From Nitrosophilus kaiyonis (GTDB taxonomy: Bacteria > Campylobacterota > Campylobacteria > Campylobacterales > Nitratiruptoraceae), in the NCBI RefSeq assembly GCF_027943725.1, contig NZ_AP025696.1, positions 907,501 through 971,500 of the forward strand: DNA of 64,000 nt, read 5' to 3'. Position numbers and translations under genes: made by a program. Of this stretch, positions 3,318 to 60,681 are shown in pieces (position 1 is the stretch's first letter; each line of letters opens with the position of its first letter). The notes beneath the pieces were generated by a model. That model did not search any database. It saw only the letters and a list, made by a program, of their open reading frames with translations, and was not told where the DNA came from.

Positions 3318-3333
3318 AACCTTCCTTTATTTG

Positions 3334-3539
3334 GATATTGGACATGAGATATTAGGAATTAGGAATTGGGAATTAGTGTTAGTGTAAGTTATTTTACTAA
3401 CACTATTCACTATTACTAAACCCTTCATTCCTTCGCTGCTTCACAACTTTTCCGCTTCACACCTTCATAGCTTTTTACCAATAACTAATAACCAATATAC
3501 CAATTACCAATCTCTAATGTCAAATGTCTAATAATCCAA
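3334..3539. repeat. heptad-repeat island between murG and ftsW
   Basis: A degenerate 7-bp-periodic tract with several flavours: ATTAGGA/ATTGGGA units on the left, CTTCACA/CCTTCAT units in the middle and TAACCAA/CTAATGT units on the right. The centre near 3380-3405 has an inverted pair GTGTTAGT / ACTAACAC. The middle section is recognisably paralogous to the island at 32068-32192. It occupies the whole murG-ftsW gap and contains no gene. Confidence 0.85.
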
Positions 3540-6568: not shown

Positions 6569-6614
6569 TATAAAGAGGTATAACGGGATAGTGGAATAGG
6601 AGATAAGGGGGTAA
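6569..6614. repeat. heptad-repeat tract after ftsI (GGATAGT flavour)
   Basis: Purine-rich 7-bp-spaced units (AGGTATA, ACGGGAT, AGTGGAA, TAGGAGA) fill the space between the ftsI stop and the family B element. Confidence 0.7.
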
Positions 6615-6791
6615 GTGAGCGAGGGCAAAGCGAAGCTTTAAGACAACAACTGCTTGTTGTCTGTGCCCGAGCGAAAGCCTTGAGTATATGTGAGTCCGAA
6701 AAACAAGGTTTTTCGTGACGAACATACGAGAGGTTGGTTTACCTTGAAGAAAATCAAATGAGCAAAGTGAATGAAGATTTTCGGTTAAATT
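6615..6791 (+). repeat. structured repeat family B, copy 1
   Basis: A non-coding multi-hairpin element in the ftsI-alaS gap. Hairpins in order: AAAGC-GAA-GCTTT (6627-6639); AGACAACAA-CTGC-TTGTTGTCT (6641-6662); a long stem with AGCCT/AGGTT outside, GTA(TA)TGT/ACATAC inside and CGAAAAAC-AAG-GTTTTTCG at the tip (6676-6735); then TTTACC-ttgaa-GAAAATC paired with GATTTTC-GGTTAA (6738-6788). An outer GGGCA/TGCCC encloses the first two. Copy 2 at 37188-37394 keeps the layout and loops with compensating stem changes. The strand shown is the one in which G-U pairs fit. Confidence 0.85.
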
Positions 6792-6895
6792 TGAGGGTGA
6801 AGGTTGAAGGGAGAAGGTAGAAGGGGATAAAGGAAGTGGCTAATTCCCAATTCCTAATGACTAATGACTAATGTCCAATGACCAATGTCTAATCT
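6792..6895. repeat. heptad-repeat island upstream of alaS
   Basis: Two flavours in succession: GAAGGTT/GAAGGGA units, then AATTCCC, AATTCCT, AATGACT, AATGTCC in strict 7-bp register up to about 6895. A possible promoter (TTAAAAT, 6903-6909) and the alaS ribosome site GAGGAA follow. Confidence 0.85.
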
Positions 6896-6936
6896 CATTT
6901 ATGTTAAAATTAGCAAAAAAATATTAAGAGGAATTT

Positions 6937-20345: not shown

Positions 20346-20359
20346 TTTAAATCTATTAG

Positions 20360-20505
20360 CAAGTGAGAAGTCATTGGTCATTAAGTGATTATTCATTAGT
20401 AAAAATTAGTGATATTGGATAGTGATAGTTGAGAGGTTTTAACTACTCAACCAAATTCCTCCTAATGACCAATGACTAATGACTAATGAGTAATGTCCAA
20501 TTTTA
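20360..20505. repeat. heptad-repeat island in the purE leader
   Basis: Left arm of AGTCATT/GGTCATT/TTCATTA units, right arm of CCTAATG, ACCAATG, ACTAATG, ACTAATG, AGTAATG units in 7-bp register; the arms are on opposite strands and can pair around a unique centre (about 20405-20455). Confidence 0.85.
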
Positions 20506-21086: not shown

Positions 21087-21283
21087 GAATGCTCTGAAAA
21101 ATTATCAAATTTTACTCAAACAAGTTGAAATTTTTAGTAAACTAACGCTTGAAAATTTTATTAAAAAGTGCAAACGCAAGCGCCCTAAAAGGGTAAATGC
21201 ACTTTTTTGGCCTAAAGGCCAACATAAAATTTTCATACTAAAATTTCAAAGTTTTCGTTCAATTTGTAATTTTTCAGAGGTCT
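21087..21283. repeat. near-palindromic dispersed repeat family A, copy 1 (197 bp)
   Basis: Identical in length to the copy at 39583-39779, with four base differences. Imperfect terminal inverted repeats begin CTCTGAAAAATTA at the left and, on the other strand, at the right. Inside are a stem AAAAAGTGCA/TGCACTTTTT (21163-21207) enclosing CCCT-AAA-AGGG, and TTGGCC-TAAA-GGCCAA (21207-21222). It encodes no recognisable protein although one frame is open throughout. MITE-like. It is flanked on both sides by heptad tracts. Confidence 0.88.
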
Positions 21284-21352
21284 TAATGTCTAATTTCCAA
21301 TTACCAATGCCTAATGACTAATTACAAATTACTAATGTCCAATGACTAATTT
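21284..21352. repeat. heptad-repeat tract right of family A copy 1
   Basis: TAATGTC, TAATTTC, CAATTAC, CAATGCC, TAATGAC, TAATTAC, AAATTAC, TAATGTC, CAATGAC, TAATTT: near-perfect 7-bp register before the next gene's ribosome site. Confidence 0.88.
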
Positions 21353-21366
21353 AAAAAAGGAAAATT

Positions 21367-22236
21367 ATGAATATGAAGCCAGATTGTCTGGTATGTCTTT
21401 TTAATCAGACTTTAAGAGTTACAAAAGCTCTTAATTTAGATGACGAAAGTGCTAAAAAAGTTTTAGATGAAGCTGCTATTACTATTTCAAAATTTTCTCT
21501 AAATATGACACCACCCGAGGCTGCTGCTATTTTATATCCTCAAATTTCAAAAATAGTAAAAAAAGATGATGTTTATGAAGAAAAAAAGATAGAGTCTACC
21601 AATAAAGCTTTAAAATTATTAGATATTGTAGTAGAGAAAGTAAATAGTTTAAAAGATGATATAGATGGGGCTTTGAGAGCTGCAGTATTAGGAAATATTA
21701 TAGATTTTGCAACACAAGTAATGTTTGATATCGAAAAAGAGATTGATACAATATTTAAAGCAAAATTTGCAATTGATGATAAAGAGAGTTTTAAAAAGAA
21801 ACTAAAAGAATCAAAAAAAGTTGTTGTCATAGGTGATAATGTGGGTGAGCATGTTTTTGATAAATTTATGATGGAAATATTTTTTGATTTTAATCCAAAA
21901 ATAGATATATTTTATATTACAAGAGGAAAACCTATTATAAATGATGTAACAGCAAAAGATGCTAAGGCAATAGATATAGATAAAATTGCGCAAATAGTTG
22001 ATAGTGGAGTAGATACTCCAGGTTTTATATATAACAAAGCTAATGATTATACAAAAAAAATTTTTGATGAAGCTGATCTTATATTAGCAAAAGGCATGGG
22101 AAATTATGAGTGTATGGAAGAGTTAAAAGATGATAGGATATTTTTTCTATTTAAAGTAAAATGTTCAGTAGTAGCTAATAAAATTGGAAAAAATATTGGA
22201 GATTTAATTTGTATGAATAGTAGAGTTAAGAGTTAA
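21367..22236 (+). CDS. DUF89 family damage-control phosphatase-like protein
   Basis: 289 residues of the DUF89/ARMT1 metal-dependent phosphatase family, proposed to remove damaged sugar-phosphate or cofactor intermediates. The N-terminal PDCLVC CxxC marks the prokaryotic subgroup. Metal/active-site segments are IGDNVGEHVFDKFMM, ITRGKPIINDVTAKDA and DLILAKGMGNYECM. The substrate is unknown. The last codons (SRVKS and stop) are made of heptad-repeat sequence, so the natural C-terminus may have been altered. AAAAGGA precedes the ATG. Confidence 0.85.
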   Translation: MNMKPDCLVCLFNQTLRVTKALNLDDESAKKVLDEAAITISKFSLNMTPPEAAAILYPQISKIVKKDDVYEEKKIESTNKALKLLDIVVEKVNSLKDDIDGALRAAVLGNIIDFATQVMFDIEKEIDTIFKAKFAIDDKESFKKKLKESKKVVVIGDNVGEHVFDKFMMEIFFDFNPKIDIFYITRGKPIINDVTAKDAKAIDIDKIAQIVDSGVDTPGFIYNKANDYTKKIFDEADLILAKGMGNYECMEELKDDRIFFLFKVKCSVVANKIGKNIGDLICMNSRVKS

Positions 22237-22315
22237 GTGCTAAGAGTTAAGAGAAATAATAATTATAAAAGTTTTAACTTAATGCTTAATTCTTAACGCT
22301 TAATTCTTAATACTA
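22222..22315. repeat. heptad-repeat hairpin island (TTAAGAG flavour)
   Basis: The left arm 22226-22251 and right arm 22285-22310 (26 nt each) are complementary with one mismatch when G-U pairs are allowed, around a 33-nt loop. Both arms are heptads (AGAGTTA / CTTAATT). The DUF89 stop codon lies in the left arm. Confidence 0.85.
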
Positions 22316-22328
22316 AAAAGGAGGTAAA

Positions 22329-23429: not shown

Positions 23430-23592
23430 GTGTGGTGAGTTAGAGTTATGAATTAAGATTTAAGAGCTAAGTGAGTTGTGGAATAGGGGCGCAGCGGGAT
23501 AGTGGAGAAGAAAATAAAGTGGAAGGATGAAGGCTGAAGGTAGAAGGAAAGGCTAACTACTAATGACCAATGACGAATGTCCAATGTCCAAC
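23430..23592. repeat. heptad-repeat island between glyQ and the Nif3-like gene
   Basis: Four flavours in tandem: AGTTAGA/GATTTAA units, AATAGGG/GGATAGT units, GATGAAG/GCTGAAG/GTAGAAG units and CTAATGA/CCAATGA/CCAATGT units. No gene is seen in the gap. Confidence 0.8.
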
Positions 23593-24346: not shown

Positions 24347-25066
24347 ATGAAACAATATATTAAGCAGCTTGTTGAACTATCAAAAGTTGATAAAGAGATT
24401 GACTCATTTGAGCCAAAAATAATTGAGGTAAAAAGTAGACTTGAAAATGTTGAAAAAGAGAAAAATATTATAGAAGAGTCAATCAATGCTTTAAATGAAG
24501 AGATTCAAGAGTGTGAATTAAAGAAAAGAAAAAATGAACTTCATCTAAAAGAGTTATCAGATAAGTTGGATGAACTATCTAAAAAAAGTGCAAATGTTAA
24601 AACAGAAAAAGAGGCTAAAGCTATACAATTAGAAGAAGAGATTGCTAAAGAGCAGATAAATTTTGCCAATGAAGAGGTAGCAAGACTTGAAAATAGTTGT
24701 GAGACAAAGCTTGAAGAGAAAGCATCTTTAGAAGAGAGATTAAAAGAGGTTGAGGCAAGACTTGAAAAAACAAAAGAGGCAGTTGAAAATGAGTTAAAAG
24801 AGATTGAAGAGGAGAGAAAAAAAGTTTTTGAGAAAAAGCAAGAACTTATCTCAAAAATTCCTCAAAAAATTTTAGCATTTTATGAAAAAATAAGAAGATG
24901 GGCTAAAAATAGTGCTGTAGTTCCTGTTAAAAAACATGCTTGTATGGGCTGCTATATGAAAATTAACGATAAAACCTTTTCAAAAGTTATAAAAGGTGAA
25001 GAGATAGTTACATGTCCTCATTGTGGAAGAATTTTGTATCTTGAAGAAGAGGAAGAGACAGTTTAG
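24347..25066 (+). CDS. coiled-coil C4 zinc-ribbon protein (HP0958-like)
   Basis: 239 residues: a long antiparallel coiled coil (about residues 5-175) and a C-terminal zinc ribbon, CMGCYMKI and CPHCGRIL. The H. pylori homologue HP0958 stabilises sigma-54 and affects flagellin mRNA, so a role in flagellar gene expression is plausible. It sits between nif3 and waaA as in H. pylori and C. jejuni. The sequence is very rich in Glu and Lys. Confidence 0.88.
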   Translation: MKQYIKQLVELSKVDKEIDSFEPKIIEVKSRLENVEKEKNIIEESINALNEEIQECELKKRKNELHLKELSDKLDELSKKSANVKTEKEAKAIQLEEEIAKEQINFANEEVARLENSCETKLEEKASLEERLKEVEARLEKTKEAVENELKEIEEERKKVFEKKQELISKIPQKILAFYEKIRRWAKNSAVVPVKKHACMGCYMKINDKTFSKVIKGEEIVTCPHCGRILYLEEEEETV

Positions 25067-25185
25067 TATTTAGTCATTAGACATTAGACATTAGTCATTA
25101 GTAATTGGTGTTAAATAAAAGTTTTGAATTTATTATTAATTACTACTAATGACTTAATGACTAATGACCATTGACTAATGTCAAG
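25066..25185. repeat. heptad-repeat hairpin island before waaA
   Basis: Left arm ATTAGTC/ATTAGAC units and right arm CTAATGA/CCATTGA units, opposed around an AT-rich centre (about 25110-25135). It begins directly at the stop of the upstream gene. Confidence 0.85.
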
Positions 25186-28770: not shown

Positions 28771-28855
28771 AATTAGAGCTAAGAGTTAAGAGCTAAGAAT
28801 TAAGCATAGATAATAATATTTTATTTCTTAGCTCTTAATTCTTAATACTTAAATC
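28771..28855. repeat. heptad-repeat hairpin between ffh and rpsP
   Basis: A 14-bp perfect stem, TTAAGAGCTAAGAA (28786-28799) with TTCTTAGCTCTTAA (28825-28838), built from opposed AGAGCTA and CTTAATT heptads. It may act as a processing or attenuation hairpin inside the operon; no clean U tract follows. Confidence 0.85.
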
Positions 28856-28873
28856 TAAAAAGGAGAAAAACAT

Positions 28874-32948: not shown

Positions 32949-32954
32949 TTTTTG

Positions 32955-33168
32955 CCTTTGTGTTAGGGATTAGACATTAGACATTAGTAATTAGGAATTA
33001 GTGTTAAGTATTAAGAGTTAAGTGCTAAGATTTAAATGTTAAGTTTTTCAATTATCACTAAATTCTATTTACTTAGTTCTTAAATCTTAATTCTTAACTC
33101 CCACCTTACTCAACTATTCCATTATTCCTATATGCCCCTATTCCACTAATCCACTTTAAGTTCCTAAC
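32955..33168. repeat. heptad-repeat island between truB and ispE
   Basis: A 214-bp island with ATTAGAC, TTAAGAG, CTTAAAT and ATTCCAC/CTATTCC flavours, left and right arms opposed around about 33040-33065. In C. jejuni csrA occupies this slot, as I recall; I see no csrA here. Confidence 0.82.
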
Positions 33169-37394: not shown

Positions 37395-37487
37395 TTAGTG
37401 GAATAAGGCATAGCTAGATAGTGGAGAAGCTGTAAAGAAGCTAATTCCTAATTCCCAATTACTAATTACTAATGTCCAATGACTAAT
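37395..37487. repeat. heptad-repeat island after family B copy 2
   Basis: GGAATAA/AGATAGT-type units, then AATTCCT, AATTCCC, AATTACT, AATTACT, AATGTCC, AATGACT in strict register up to the end of the convergent gene. Confidence 0.85.
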
Positions 37488-37968: not shown

Positions 37969-38541
37969 TTATAAAATTATACCCTCTTCAACAATATAAA
38001 AACCAATCATTGCATTCATTAAAGCTATTTTTTTATATTTTTTTATCTCTTCAATTTTGATATCTTTTTCAAAAATCTTTTTTTCTTTTAAAAGTCTCTC
38101 TCTTGTAGTACCATAAAGTAGTGGCTTTTTAGGTGTAAGCCATTTTTTTCCGTCAAAAAGTGCAATATTTGCAATTGAGGTATCTGTAATTAGTCCATTT
38201 TTTACTATAATAATCTCATCTGCTTTATCTCTTTTTTCAAAAAGTTCATCAATTTTTTTTCTATCAAGATATTTATAATCATAATCAATATTTGATTCAA
38301 TCAACTTAAAGCTTTTTATCTCTCTTTGTTGATATGGAAAATATCTAATATCTAAAATATCTTTATCATATATGACTTTACATCTAAAAAATCCACTTTC
38401 ATGAGGATTGATATAATCTTGCAAGTTAAAATTGCTTTTTATATGAAAATTTTCATAGATTGTTTTATTTAATCTTTTATTGTGATAGTCAATATGAAAA
38501 ATTTTTCCATTTTCAATTTTTATTGTCTCAAAAAATTTCAC
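37969..38541 (-). CDS. class IV aminotransferase-like protein (PabC/IlvE fold)
   Basis: 190 residues, short for the family. FFETIKIENGKIFHIDYHNKR matches the N-terminus of aminodeoxychorismate lyases; YDYKYLDRKK holds the likely PLP lysine, followed by ADEIIIVKNGLITDTSIANI and TPKKPLLYGTTRERLL. A 4-amino-4-deoxychorismate lyase role in folate synthesis is likely, given the small size, but no pabA/B is in the window. A heptad tract overlaps its first codons. Confidence 0.78.
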   Translation of the reverse strand: MKFFETIKIENGKIFHIDYHNKRLNKTIYENFHIKSNFNLQDYINPHESGFFRCKVIYDKDILDIRYFPYQQREIKSFKLIESNIDYDYKYLDRKKIDELFEKRDKADEIIIVKNGLITDTSIANIALFDGKKWLTPKKPLLYGTTRERLLKEKKIFEKDIKIEEIKKYKKIALMNAMIGFYIVEEGIIL

Positions 38542-38592
38542 TTTCTCACTTTCTTACTCTCTAACTTTCTCACTCTGTCACTCTCTAACTAA
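38536..38592. repeat. pyrimidine-rich heptad tract between cysK and the class IV aminotransferase
   Basis: TTTCTCA, CTTTCTT, ACTCTCT, AACTTTC, TCACTCT, GTCACTC, TCTAACT: 7-bp-periodic in yet another flavour. On the minus strand it gives GAGTGA/AGAAAG purine-rich sequence in front of the gene. Confidence 0.75.
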
Positions 38593-39582: not shown

Positions 39583-39779
39583 GAATGCTCTGAAAAATTA
39601 TCAAATTTTACTCAAACAAGTTGAAATTTTTAGTAAACTAACGCTTGAAAATTTTATTAAAAAGTGCAAACGCAAGCGCCCTAAAAGGGTAAATGCACTT
39701 TTTTGGCCTAAAGGGCAACATAAAATTTTCAAACTAAAATTTCAAAGTTTTCGTTCAATTCATAATTTTTCAGAGGTCT
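39583..39779. repeat. near-palindromic dispersed repeat family A, copy 2 (197 bp)
   Basis: Same length as copy 1 (21087-21283) with four substitutions: GGCC to GGGC in one hairpin (now one mismatch), one T/A change, and a two-base TG to CA change near the right end. The CA version restores longer terminal symmetry (CTCTGAAAAATTAT at both ends). Its open frame shows one silent and two replacement changes, giving no sign of protein-level selection. Confidence 0.88.
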
Positions 39780-39832
39780 CCATAATAAATTCTAATATCT
39801 AATGACTAATGACTAATGTCTAAACCATATTT
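39780..39832. repeat. heptad tract right of family A copy 2
   Basis: CTAATAT, CTAATGA, CTAATGA, CTAATGT, CTAAACC units. The rest of the 39500-39582 gap holds only AT-rich sequence with a short ATTAGAC/ATTGGTA piece. Confidence 0.75.
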
Positions 39833-39839
39833 TAAAATC

Positions 39840-41111
39840 TTACCAAATAACATCGCTTTTTGCAATATTACATGAGTGGAAAACTACCATATTATGCATT
39901 CTTGCATAGTATTTGATTATAAGATTTTGTAATATTGGCTCAATTGATGGAGTAAACCAAGCGTTATTACTAATAGCAATCATATATTTTGGTGCATTTT
40001 TATAAAGAAGTGGATGTGTTGCTTCATAACATATTGCATTTCTAAATTTTATATTTTTTATTTTAAAATCTGTAGGTTTTTTAGCTTTTTGATAATCTTC
40101 AGCACCATTGAAAAATATCTCATTTACATGTTTTGCTAAAAATTTTGGAAGAGGAGTCTCTTCTCCAAAAGGAACAAGCACAACTTTATCTGCAATTATT
40201 AATCTTTCATTTATAAAAATGTATGAAGAGTTATAAGGAAGAGAGTTTTTATAATGAAGTCCACCTGTAATTATGGCTATTTTTTTACTCTTTTCTTTTA
40301 AAATATTTAATAAATCATCATCTAAATTAAGATACATAGGAAAAGCGCTCTCAGGTAACACTACTAAATCATATCCTTTTTCTATTGCTTTATCTATGAT
40401 TTTTAAATTTGAATATACTATTTTTTCTCTATATTTTGGATCCCATTTAACATCTTGAGGAATTTTTGTCTGGCTTAGATAAATTTTTAGATTGGGCATT
40501 TTTGGCTTGCAATCTTTAAAATCAACAGCCAAAAAAAGCAAAACAAAAACAGTAAAAAATTTCCCCAAATTCCTAATATCCAATTTCCATTTCCTAATTC
40601 CTAATATCCCCATATTAATAGCTAATAAAATTAATAAAAACGATAATTTATCAAAAGAAAACATAGTATTAACAAGTGTTAATTCTGGTATAAACCAGTT
40701 AAAACCAAATGGATGGATATAGCTTAAAGTTAATAAAAATAAACTTTTAATTAAGCTGTGAAGCTGCGAAGGAGTGAAGCTGTGAAGATTTTTACTAATT
40801 CCCAATATTATCCAATTACTAATCACTTCAATTAACCAAAAAATTATTCCATAAACCAAACCAACAAATAAAATAACTATTGGTATCATCCAAGAAAGAT
40901 TGTAATATCTAAAACTAAGTCCTATCCAATAAAACCACAAAATCCCTATAAAAAAACCTATCCAAAAATTGAGTTTTTTATCTGCTTTTAAAATAAAAAA
41001 TAAAGATATAACAGCCAAAATTGAGTTTAAATATATATTTTTTATTTCCAAATATTCACTATAAATAAAAAAACTAAAAGCAGTTGCAATTAAAAAGGCT
41101 TTTATTAGCAA
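39840..41111 (-). CDS. lnt: apolipoprotein N-acyltransferase
   Basis: Adds the third acyl chain to lipoproteins in the inner membrane. About seven membrane helices are followed by a nitrilase-like domain with the catalytic Glu (VVLPESAFPMYL), Lys (GGLHYKNSL) and Cys (FRNAICYEATHP). The start is uncertain: TTG 41111 (LLIKAFLIATAFS) is plausible; the longer open frame from 41210 would overlap yajC by about 55 bp and adds non-family sequence. Two heptad tracts lie inside the coding region and are translated in frame. The Lnt-YajC-SecD order matches C. jejuni. Confidence 0.85.
   Translation of the reverse strand: MLIKAFLIATAFSFFIYSEYLEIKNIYLNSILAVISLFFILKADKKLNFWIGFFIGILWFYWIGLSFRYYNLSWMIPIVILFVGLVYGIIFWLIEVISNWIILGISKNLHSFTPSQLHSLIKSLFLLTLSYIHPFGFNWFIPELTLVNTMFSFDKLSFLLILLAINMGILGIRKWKLDIRNLGKFFTVFVLLFLAVDFKDCKPKMPNLKIYLSQTKIPQDVKWDPKYREKIVYSNLKIIDKAIEKGYDLVVLPESAFPMYLNLDDDLLNILKEKSKKIAIITGGLHYKNSLPYNSSYIFINERLIIADKVVLVPFGEETPLPKFLAKHVNEIFFNGAEDYQKAKKPTDFKIKNIKFRNAICYEATHPLLYKNAPKYMIAISNNAWFTPSIEPILQNLIIKYYARMHNMVVFHSCNIAKSDVIW
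40558..40618. repeat. heptad tract inside lnt (AATTCCT flavour)
   Basis: CAAATTC, CTAATAT, CCAATTT, CCATTTC, CTAATTC, CTAATAT units, read on the minus strand as part of GIRKWKLDIRNLGKFF between membrane helices. The frame stays open. Confidence 0.8.
40750..40835. repeat. heptad tract inside lnt (GTGAAGC and AATTCCC flavours)
   Basis: TGTGAAG, CTGCGAA, GGAGTGA, AGCTGTG and then ATTCCCA, ATTATCC, AATTACT, AATCACT. It is translated in frame on the minus strand as the polar loop SNWIILGISKNLHSFTPSQL. Confidence 0.8.
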
Positions 41112-43018: not shown

Positions 43019-43989
43019 TGGAGTTTTTTAAAACAGATAAAACTTATAATTTTATGGGTAAAAGTAAAATATTTATCTCATTTTCACTGCTTTTAATTGC
43101 TATTAGTTATGTTTTGCTTTTTACAAAAGGGCTTAATTTTGGTATAGATTTTACTGGTGGAACTATAATACAGGTAAAGTATGATAAAAAAGTTGCAATC
43201 AAGCCAATAAGAGAAGCCCTTAAAAAAAGTGAAGTTTTTAAAGATGCTGCAGTTACATATTTTGGAAGTGATCAAGAGATAATCATAAGAGTAAAAACAT
43301 CTACAAAAAAACTGACTTCAGATATTGGAGATGAGGCAAGAAAGGTTTTAAAAGGTACTGGAAATTTTGAAATAAGAAGAGTAGATATTGTTGGACCAAA
43401 GGTTGGAGGAGAACTAAGAGAAAAAGGGATAATGGCTACAGTTATTGCCATTATTGGTATTTTAATATATGTATCTTTTAGATTTGAGTGGCGCTTTGCT
43501 TTGGCTTCGGTATTGGCTCTTGTTCATGATGTAAGCATTGCAATGGGAGCTATAAGTCTATTTAATGTGCCTGTTAATTTAGATATATTAGCAGCAATTT
43601 TAACAATTCTTGGATACTCTTTAAATGATACAATAATTGTATTTGACAGGATTAGGGAAGGTATTGTTGAAGCAAAAACAGATAATTTAAATGAAGTAAT
43701 AAATGAATCAATCACAAAAACTCTATCAAGAACAACACTTACTTCACTTACAACATTTTTTGTTGTTTTAACTCTTTACCTATTTGGTGGTGAAATTATA
43801 AGAGGGTTTAGTTTTACACTTCTTGTTGGCATCATTGTTGGTACATACAGCTCTATTTTTGTAGCATCTCCGCTTCTTGGATGGCTTGGATTTAATCTTA
43901 AAAAATATAGAGAAAAACTTGCTCAAAAGAAAAAAAGAGAACAAGAGAAAGAGAGAATGAGAGCAATGTATGAGGGTGGAGTTGTTTAA
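43018..43989 (+). CDS. secF: protein translocase subunit SecF
   Basis: Partner of SecD. 323 residues: GLNFGIDFTGGTIIQVKY after helix 1, periplasmic domain, then helices with GYSLNDTIIVFDRIREG and SRTTLTSLTTFFVVL. A basic tail (KKREQEKERMRAMYEGG) ends the protein. A heptad island separates it from leuS. Confidence 0.97.
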   Translation: MEFFKTDKTYNFMGKSKIFISFSLLLIAISYVLLFTKGLNFGIDFTGGTIIQVKYDKKVAIKPIREALKKSEVFKDAAVTYFGSDQEIIIRVKTSTKKLTSDIGDEARKVLKGTGNFEIRRVDIVGPKVGGELREKGIMATVIAIIGILIYVSFRFEWRFALASVLALVHDVSIAMGAISLFNVPVNLDILAAILTILGYSLNDTIIVFDRIREGIVEAKTDNLNEVINESITKTLSRTTLTSLTTFFVVLTLYLFGGEIIRGFSFTLLVGIIVGTYSSIFVASPLLGWLGFNLKKYREKLAQKKKREQEKERMRAMYEGGVV

Positions 43990-44077
43990 TAGTTGATAGT
44001 CTATAGTCTTCAGTCTTTAGAATTTAATTAAAAACTTTTAACTACCGACTATCGACTACTGACTAACGACTAAAAAA
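43990..44077. repeat. heptad-repeat hairpin island between secF and leuS
   Basis: The left arm (AGTCTAT, AGTCTTC, AGTCTTT) and right arm (GACTATC, GACTACT, GACTAAC, GACTAAA) are opposed around AATTTAATTAAAAAC. Confidence 0.85.
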
Positions 44078-57397: not shown

Positions 57398-59676
<2,279 letters not shown>

Positions 59677-60071: not shown

Positions 60072-60681
60072 TAATCAGAAACCAAAAACCAAAAACCAAA
60101 AACCAAAAACCAAAAACTATTTCGTTCACGAAAGCTCATATGTTGATGATAATGTTCAAATAGGCGAAAATACAAAAATATGGCATTTTTGCCATATTTT
60201 ATCTAATACTATAATTGGTAAAAATTGCTCTTTTGGACAAAATTGTGTAGTAGGGCCAAATGTAAAAATAGGAAATAATGTAAAGGTGCAAAATAATATA
60301 TCTATATATGATGGAGTTGAAATAGAAGATGATATATTTTTAGGACCATCAATGGTTTTTACAAATGTAATAAATCCAAGGGCATTTATAAATAGAAAGA
60401 GTGAATTTAAAAAGACTTTATTAAAAAAAGGCTGTTCAATTGGAGCAAATGCAACAATTGTATGTGGAATCACTATTGGAGAGTATGCACTGATTGGAGC
60501 CGGGGCGGTAGTGAATAAAGATGTCAAGCCTTACGCGCTAATGGTAGGAGTGCCGGCAAGACAGATTGGTTGGGTTGATAAAGCCGGAAATAAAATGATA
60601 TTTGATAAAAATGGAATTGCAGTTGATAGTTATGATGACACTAAATATATTTTAATAGATGATGAAATAAAAATTTTATAA
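60064..60681 (+). CDS. wlbB: UDP-2-acetamido-3-amino-glucuronate N-acetyltransferase, WlbB/WbpD-like
   Basis: A left-handed beta-helix acetyltransferase that N-acetylates the 3-amino group. 205 residues with hexapeptide repeats: [75 protein letters not shown] and [14 protein letters not shown]. The only start in frame, ATG 60064, forces translation through a heptad tract giving [16 protein letters not shown] ahead of [10 protein letters not shown] stretch near 60497-60560 is markedly richer in GC codons than its surroundings. Confidence 0.9.
60076..60117. repeat. heptad tract in the wlbB 5' coding end (CCAAAAA flavour)
   Basis: About six near-exact CCAAAAA units immediately after the start codon region, translated as [14 protein letters not shown]: the 7-bp unit gives a 7-residue peptide repeat (QKPKTKN). 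Confidence 0.92.

Follow-up and report, generated by a model that had tools for sequence, protein, structure and literature searches.

The DUF89/ARMT1 gene and the glutaredoxin gene of Nitrosophilus kaiyonis are separated by an island of two arrays of 7-base units (heptads) that stand in opposite orientation (positions 22222-22315), which raises the question of why the two arms of such a hairpin match. An initial annotation of this DNA had proposed that the arms evolve together, either through hairpin-mediated slippage or through selection for structure. The window, i.e., the whole stretch of 64,000 nt, covers positions 907501-971500 of the single-contig 1.77 Mb genome of this vent-type member of the Campylobacterota (G000). 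Its GlyQ protein, with 86% to a Nitratiruptor metagenome-assembled genome as the nearest named record, supports placement in this phylum. We added 463 kb of further stretches from the same genome, for a total of 527 kb analyzed; 29 of the 30 stretches were picked by a YTAA-heptad pattern match on either strand, while the window itself was not so picked. Genes in the polarity counts were mechanical ORF calls. Array orientation was called from the unit motif, blind to position, and some of these calls are noisy because the unit CTAATGA contains both G and C.

Heptad islands are opposed arrays with outward polarity

The window contains 25 period-7 arrays compared with 0-1 in Markov shuffles, and the same array search found none of periods 5, 6 or 10 there. 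In all of the analyzed stretches there are 172 arrays, of which 16 lie inside ORFs, so that the arrays are mostly intergenic. The heptad units of this genome (YTAAKNN and others) occur as opposed pairs, with the G-containing arm first and the C-containing arm second. This layout, initially described as a left/right switch in a few islands, proved to be general: neighboring arrays in the window run left-then-right in 7 cases and right-then-left in 0, and in the 527 kb a left-type array precedes a right-type array 35 times while the reverse order occurs twice. Outward-facing arrays outnumber inward-facing arrays 121:17 in the 527 kb (odds ratio 51, p = 4e-20), and a cruder G-versus-C orientation call agrees (odds ratio 30, p = 7e-18). 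The polarity is outward at start boundaries (61:7) and at stop boundaries (60:10), is present in ++, --, +- and -+ gaps (convergent gaps, 10:2), and is likewise outward in two other species of the genus, G002 and G003. The right-type array at 37441..37487 lies at the stop of a minus-strand gene, which shows that its polarity is independent of gene direction. Because polarity is equal at starts and stops and in all gap types, it is a property of the island and is not set by the direction of transcription; a polarity that follows transcription is ruled out. Flavors also appear to be layered, with YTAATGN nearest the genes, YYAATTN inside and TTAAGNN innermost, in the arrays and in one alignment.

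Arrays of other kinds accompany the islands (features of the window are collected in Table 1). Period-8 arrays of GGAATAGT, TCACTCTC and AAGCTGTG sit at the same kind of site as the heptads (33107-33155, 38538-38590 and 40753-40787), and the octads TATATTGG and GTTGAGTA occur in G002/G003 (L168/L171). Heptad arrays of ACCTTCA and AAACCAA lie within predicted ORFs near gene ends (58525-58557, 58626-58664 and 60073-60117), and these genes have possibly been extended or frame-varied by the repeats.

Table 1 Heptad arrays, islands and interspersed elements of the window
Feature	Position	Strand	Basis	Remarks
Layered two-armed island, 7- and 8-base units	3331..3532	-	period arrays	
Element B, structured 180-nt interspersed repeat within island	6613..6792	+		
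Right-type array downstream of element B	6842..6896	-		
Two-armed island before purE, YTAATGN flavor	20355..20505	+	folding, matches elsewhere	center common to islands elsewhere in G000
Element A, ~202-bp interspersed repeat within heptad island	21087..21288	+		
Right-type array YTAATGN / YYAATTN after element A, between purE and DUF89 gene	21284..21350	-		
Left heptad arm, TTAAGNN flavor, DUF89/ARMT1 gene-glutaredoxin boundary	22222..22253	+	period-7 arrays, folding	initial 15 nt are last codons and stop of DUF89/ARMT1 gene
Right heptad arm, partner of 22222..22253	22278..22317	-	period-7 arrays, folding	stops at AAGGAGG ribosome site of glutaredoxin gene
Island between glyQ and nif3: left TTAAG, GAAGGNN, right CTAATGA arrays	23443..23591	+		
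Two-armed island, YTAATGW flavor	25062..25185	+	period-7 arrays, folding	left arm overlaps zinc-ribbon gene stop codon; YYAATTN hairpin at this boundary in sister species
Heptad hairpin at ffh-rpsP, 20-bp stem	28771..28860	+	folding, locus comparison	
Layered two-armed island	32949..33168	-	85.5% identity over 173 bp with L157 island	
Right-type array beside minus-strand gene's stop codon	37441..37487	-		
Element A, second copy	39583-39779			
Right-type array after second element A copy	39791..39823	-		
Two-armed island between secF and leuS, TAGTCNN left, NNGACTA right	43986..44073	+		

Folding depends on opposed orientation and flavor

The island at 22222-22315 folds at -27.4 kcal/mol compared with -13.7 for dinucleotide shuffles (z -5.5). 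As originally claimed, the arms at 22226-22310 pair with a single mismatch if G-U is allowed (26 pairs, the mismatch being internal). The left/right strand switches noted at 20360-20505, 25066-25185 and 43990-44077 were borne out by the folding of the corresponding islands (20355-20505, z -4.7; 25062-25185, z -5.9; 43986-44077, z -4.7). The perfect stem reported at 28786-28838 is also real (28771-28860, z -5.5), but its length had been given as 14 bp and is actually 20 uninterrupted pairs.

Across 35 two-armed islands, the mean folding energy was -22.8 kcal/mol. Permuting the units within each arm gave -22.5 (p = 0.50) and permuting columns gave a mean of -22.1 (p = 0.24), whereas flipping one arm left about half of the real energy (mean -11.0, p = 1e-10) and shuffling bases gave a mean of -13.8 (p = 1e-8). 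Pairing thus results from opposed orientation and flavor, without any finer register. That shuffled heptads of the same unit content fold as well as the real islands speaks against arms that evolve together.

The two arms drift between sister species

Both arms of an island do share a flavor more often than expected by chance, as the initial annotation had observed (19 of 37 islands compared with 27% expected, p = 4e-4). Such a match can look compensating, but it need not imply coevolution. In 12 TTAAG islands, arms scored -21.7 with their own partner and -23.4 ± 1.3 with permuted partners, so foreign arms pair equally well.

Correlated changes were scored between G002 and G003, which share ~94% DNA identity, in 10 orthologous islands, 9 of which gave countable pairs. 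Among the stem pairs, 264 were unchanged, 9 were kept as wobble pairs, 16 were broken and 23 fell in gaps, and there were 0 compensatory changes in the 10 islands. Paired sites differed by substitution at 4.7%, compared with 5.9% for island sites outside the pairs and 6.3% for the flanks. Whole-unit indels were confined to one arm (35 bases in L196/L210 and 7 bases in L173/L202), and at other boundaries the two species bear quite different repeats. On the sense strand of co-directional gaps, G.T and A.C mismatches were balanced (36:32 in G000; 64:59 over three species), and wobble against A.C was 30:22 in short spacers; the 36:32 result is negative for RNA selection on heptad islands at large. 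An alignment of paralogous heptad stems carried a weak signal, with an unfavorable covariation term of +1.49 and two-sided changes in 4 of 20 pairs, and the compensatory covariation of conserved structured RNAs was not found in heptad stems.

The lack of compensatory changes, the 16 broken pairs, the one-armed unit indels and the balanced mismatches together indicate that the arms drift. Because they do not track each other's mutations, they resemble copies of a spreading hairpin-shaped repeat and not arms matched by selection. The proposal that the arms evolve together thus gave way on both counts, as permuted or foreign arms pair equally well and arms diverge freely between the two species.

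One of two interspersed elements inside islands is clearly structured

Two interspersed elements of ~180-205 bp lie inside islands, and one of them, element B, is clearly structured. Analyzed in the same way as the heptad stems, element B served as their internal positive control: its alignment supports 52 pairs in six helices, with two-sided changes in 23 of the 52 and a covariation term of -5.75. None of 500 shuffles reached the covariation score and slid versions fell far short of it, although kinship among the copies means that the shuffle count cannot be read as a probability. Matches to element B number 33 in G000 and 8-9 in G002/G003, and related copies are found in G002, G003, G006 and G009. 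Rfam returned 0 matches at gathering score in the window and none up to E = 1 in the sequence surrounding element B, which, on the strength of its alignment, may represent a new family of structured RNA or single-strand DNA elements. Element A is matched at 9 places in G000 and at 25-33 in G003/G002; in two of the G000 copies (L137 and L140), one segment is replaced by the hairpin TGTCCGAGCC...GAGGACA.

Comparison of boundaries indicates selection on RNA at ffh-rpsP

Gene order around the 22222-22315 island is conserved within the family, which makes its boundaries comparable between relatives. At purE-DUF89 and DUF89-grx, most relatives have no spacer, and the spacers of G000, G002, G003 and G005 each carry their own repeats. 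At ffh-rpsP, a hairpin is present in all checked loci with a usable spacer, namely in G000, G001, G002, G004 and five more distant Campylobacterota (window 28771-28860, L001, L002, L005, L013, L015, L169, L171 and L172). These hairpins have z of -4.0 to -6.8 and sequences that are unrelated between loci, the one in G000 being built of heptads. Wobble pairs outnumber A.C mismatches in eight of these loci (G.U:A.C = 16:2, p = 0.001, from a small number of species counted as independent). A hairpin conserved without sequence conservation, combined with this wobble bias, indicates by sequence comparison that the ffh-rpsP hairpin is under selection on RNA structure. The initial suggestion of selection for structure therefore finds support at this boundary only and not for heptad islands at large. 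No T-run follows the ffh-rpsP hairpin, which is thus unlike a plain terminator.

These results could be taken to mean that an RNA hairpin is selected between co-transcribed genes generally, as an mRNA stabilizer, processing site or attenuator, with a replaceable repeat fabric and a fold that is kept. Such selection would account for ffh-rpsP and for the different hairpin fabric of G000 and G002/G003 at purE-DUF89, DUF89-grx and znR-next. However, neither the heptad islands nor the short spacers show the wobble bias, the sister species lack compensatory changes, purE-DUF89 and DUF89-grx are without any spacer in most of the family, and polarity is identical in convergent and divergent gaps. We consider this reading unlikely. 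Also doubtful is the idea that the gene boundaries of this lineage have been kept hairpin-forming while the current short-period repeat vocabulary of the genome overwrites the sequence fabric wholesale, so that heptad islands would be what an ancient system of intercistronic RNA hairpins is made of today. For such a system, ffh-rpsP would be the clearest case.

Many islands are probably copies of hairpin-shaped units

The loop ATTTAGTGATAATTTAAAAAC is common to TTAAG islands at unrelated loci, with 7 matches near arrays in the 527 kb, where shuffled loop motifs gave no matches near arrays. TTAAG islands can be aligned end to end, including their outer layers, and queries with nine islands returned 509 matches in the genome stretches compared with 4 in a reversed-sequence control. 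The loops of islands 22222 and 28771 are shorter and alignable only in part. Based on the shared loops, the end-to-end alignment, the 509:4 matches and the pair of islands at unrelated loci with 85.5% identity over 173 bp, we conclude that many islands are probably copies of hairpin-shaped units, whose mode of copying we infer. Set against MITEs, which are defined by terminal inverted repeats with a target-site duplication, the islands show opposed arms, and the sister comparisons did not resolve a clean empty site with target duplication. No transposase was linked to the islands. A search for the Y1/RAYT transposase (PF01797) found none in G000-G006, while the identical search finds that of E. 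coli, and a RAYT/Y1 transposase is thereby rejected as the mobilizer of the islands in G000.

We favor, with somewhat better than even confidence, the reading that the islands belong to a small number of families of hairpin-shaped repeats, dispersed among intergenic sites, in which mutation and slippage proceed freely after copying. A founder in which a short loop joins two inverted arms of 7-base units would have been copied to many gene boundaries by transposition or ectopic gene conversion, for which two-armed copying and an enzyme are presumed. Arm flavors would match since both arms arrived in one unit, and all islands would have retained the polarity of the founder. Later, the arms would act as ordinary slippage-prone arrays that gain or lose whole units in a single arm, point changes would go uncompensated, and the hairpin would last only as long as the flavor consensus. 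At ffh-rpsP, the hairpin would be separately selected as RNA and would at present happen to consist of heptads. Arrays without a detected partner are also outward in polarity (44:3), which fits a two-armed unit only if they are half-remnants of such units, as we treat them here. Simple copying also does not predict the hairpins of unrelated sequence that stand at several boundaries in G000, in G002/G003 and, with less clarity, in G005.

Under the hairpin-mediated slippage of the initial annotation, or under template switching, an arm would template its partner during replication and so keep the two matched. The flavor match exceeds chance and the 7-base indels show that slippage acts, but a foreign arm pairs as well as an arm's own partner, the order of units has no effect, unit indels are one-armed only, and the 10 orthologous islands show no coordinated change, all of which weakens this proposal and leaves it improbable. 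We give equally little credence to independent arrays that are opposed by default under a polarity rule of gene boundaries (e.g., avoiding purine runs resembling ribosome sites before starts), which the lone arrays obey and which recalls the mostly forward TAACTGA heptads upstream of start codons in Beggiatoaceae (PMC4679880), but against which stand the equally strong polarity at stops and in convergent gaps and the common descent of many islands that their shared loops show.

Relation to known repeat systems

The four-unit heptad pattern is strongly sporadic, matching 35 of 298 genomes in the phylum, with G000 matching most. Heptad vocabulary differs sharply among related genomes (TTAAGNN and YTAATGN in G000, YYAATTN in G002/G003, ACGAATN in G005 and nearly none in G001), and heptads are absent from most Campylobacterota. 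The STRR sequences of cyanobacteria are abundant 7-base arrays of unclear function that undergo slippage. Heptanucleotides are the commonest long unit of long simple sequence repeats (LSSRs), according to the citation of Mrazek et al. 2007 in PMC4679880. The arrays of G000 are like LSSRs and STRRs in their abundance, 7-base unit, unclear function and slippage, and they show a period-7 excess, mostly intergenic placement and whole-unit length change (35 and 7 bases); LSSRs and STRRs are near-perfect tandem repeats that are not known to have opposed arms, whereas the islands of G000 have them.

Intergenic TAACTGA heptamer direct repeats are known in Beggiatoaceae, Cyanobacteria and Bacteroidetes (MacGregor 2015, PMC4679880). 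They share with the heptads of G000 a 7-base unit, a mostly intergenic location, a sporadic distribution across lineages, possible overlap with the upstream stop, an end just before the start and polarity towards the start (PMC4679880). However, TAACTGA repeats consist of one fixed unit in direct orientation, with inversion in just one of 170 sets (PMC4679880), while G000 has several degenerate flavors and opposed two-armed islands are common; a class of direct TAACTGA repeats does not include G000, where units differ and stand opposed.

The nearest known two-armed dispersed hairpins are REPINs, which are REP doublets that form hairpins and are mobilized by RAYT transposases (PMC3116915). Like REPINs, the islands are dispersed, extragenic, hairpin-forming pairs of inverted arms around a spacer, with a putative two-armed copying unit. 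Each REPIN arm is one short palindromic REP, whereas the arms in G000 are heptad arrays in a genome that lacks a RAYT (Y1_Tnp). Decades after heptamer repeats were first seen in bacteria, there is still no accepted account of their origin or function. With the outward two-armed islands, the comparable sister species and the phylum-wide RNA-level conservation at ffh-rpsP, mobile repeat, slippage and RNA function can be tested against each other. Heptamer repeats and their orientation towards start codons are already known; because those heptamers are direct repeats, and because REPINs differ in their arms and depend on a RAYT, we file the opposed two-armed islands with strict outward polarity as a variant.
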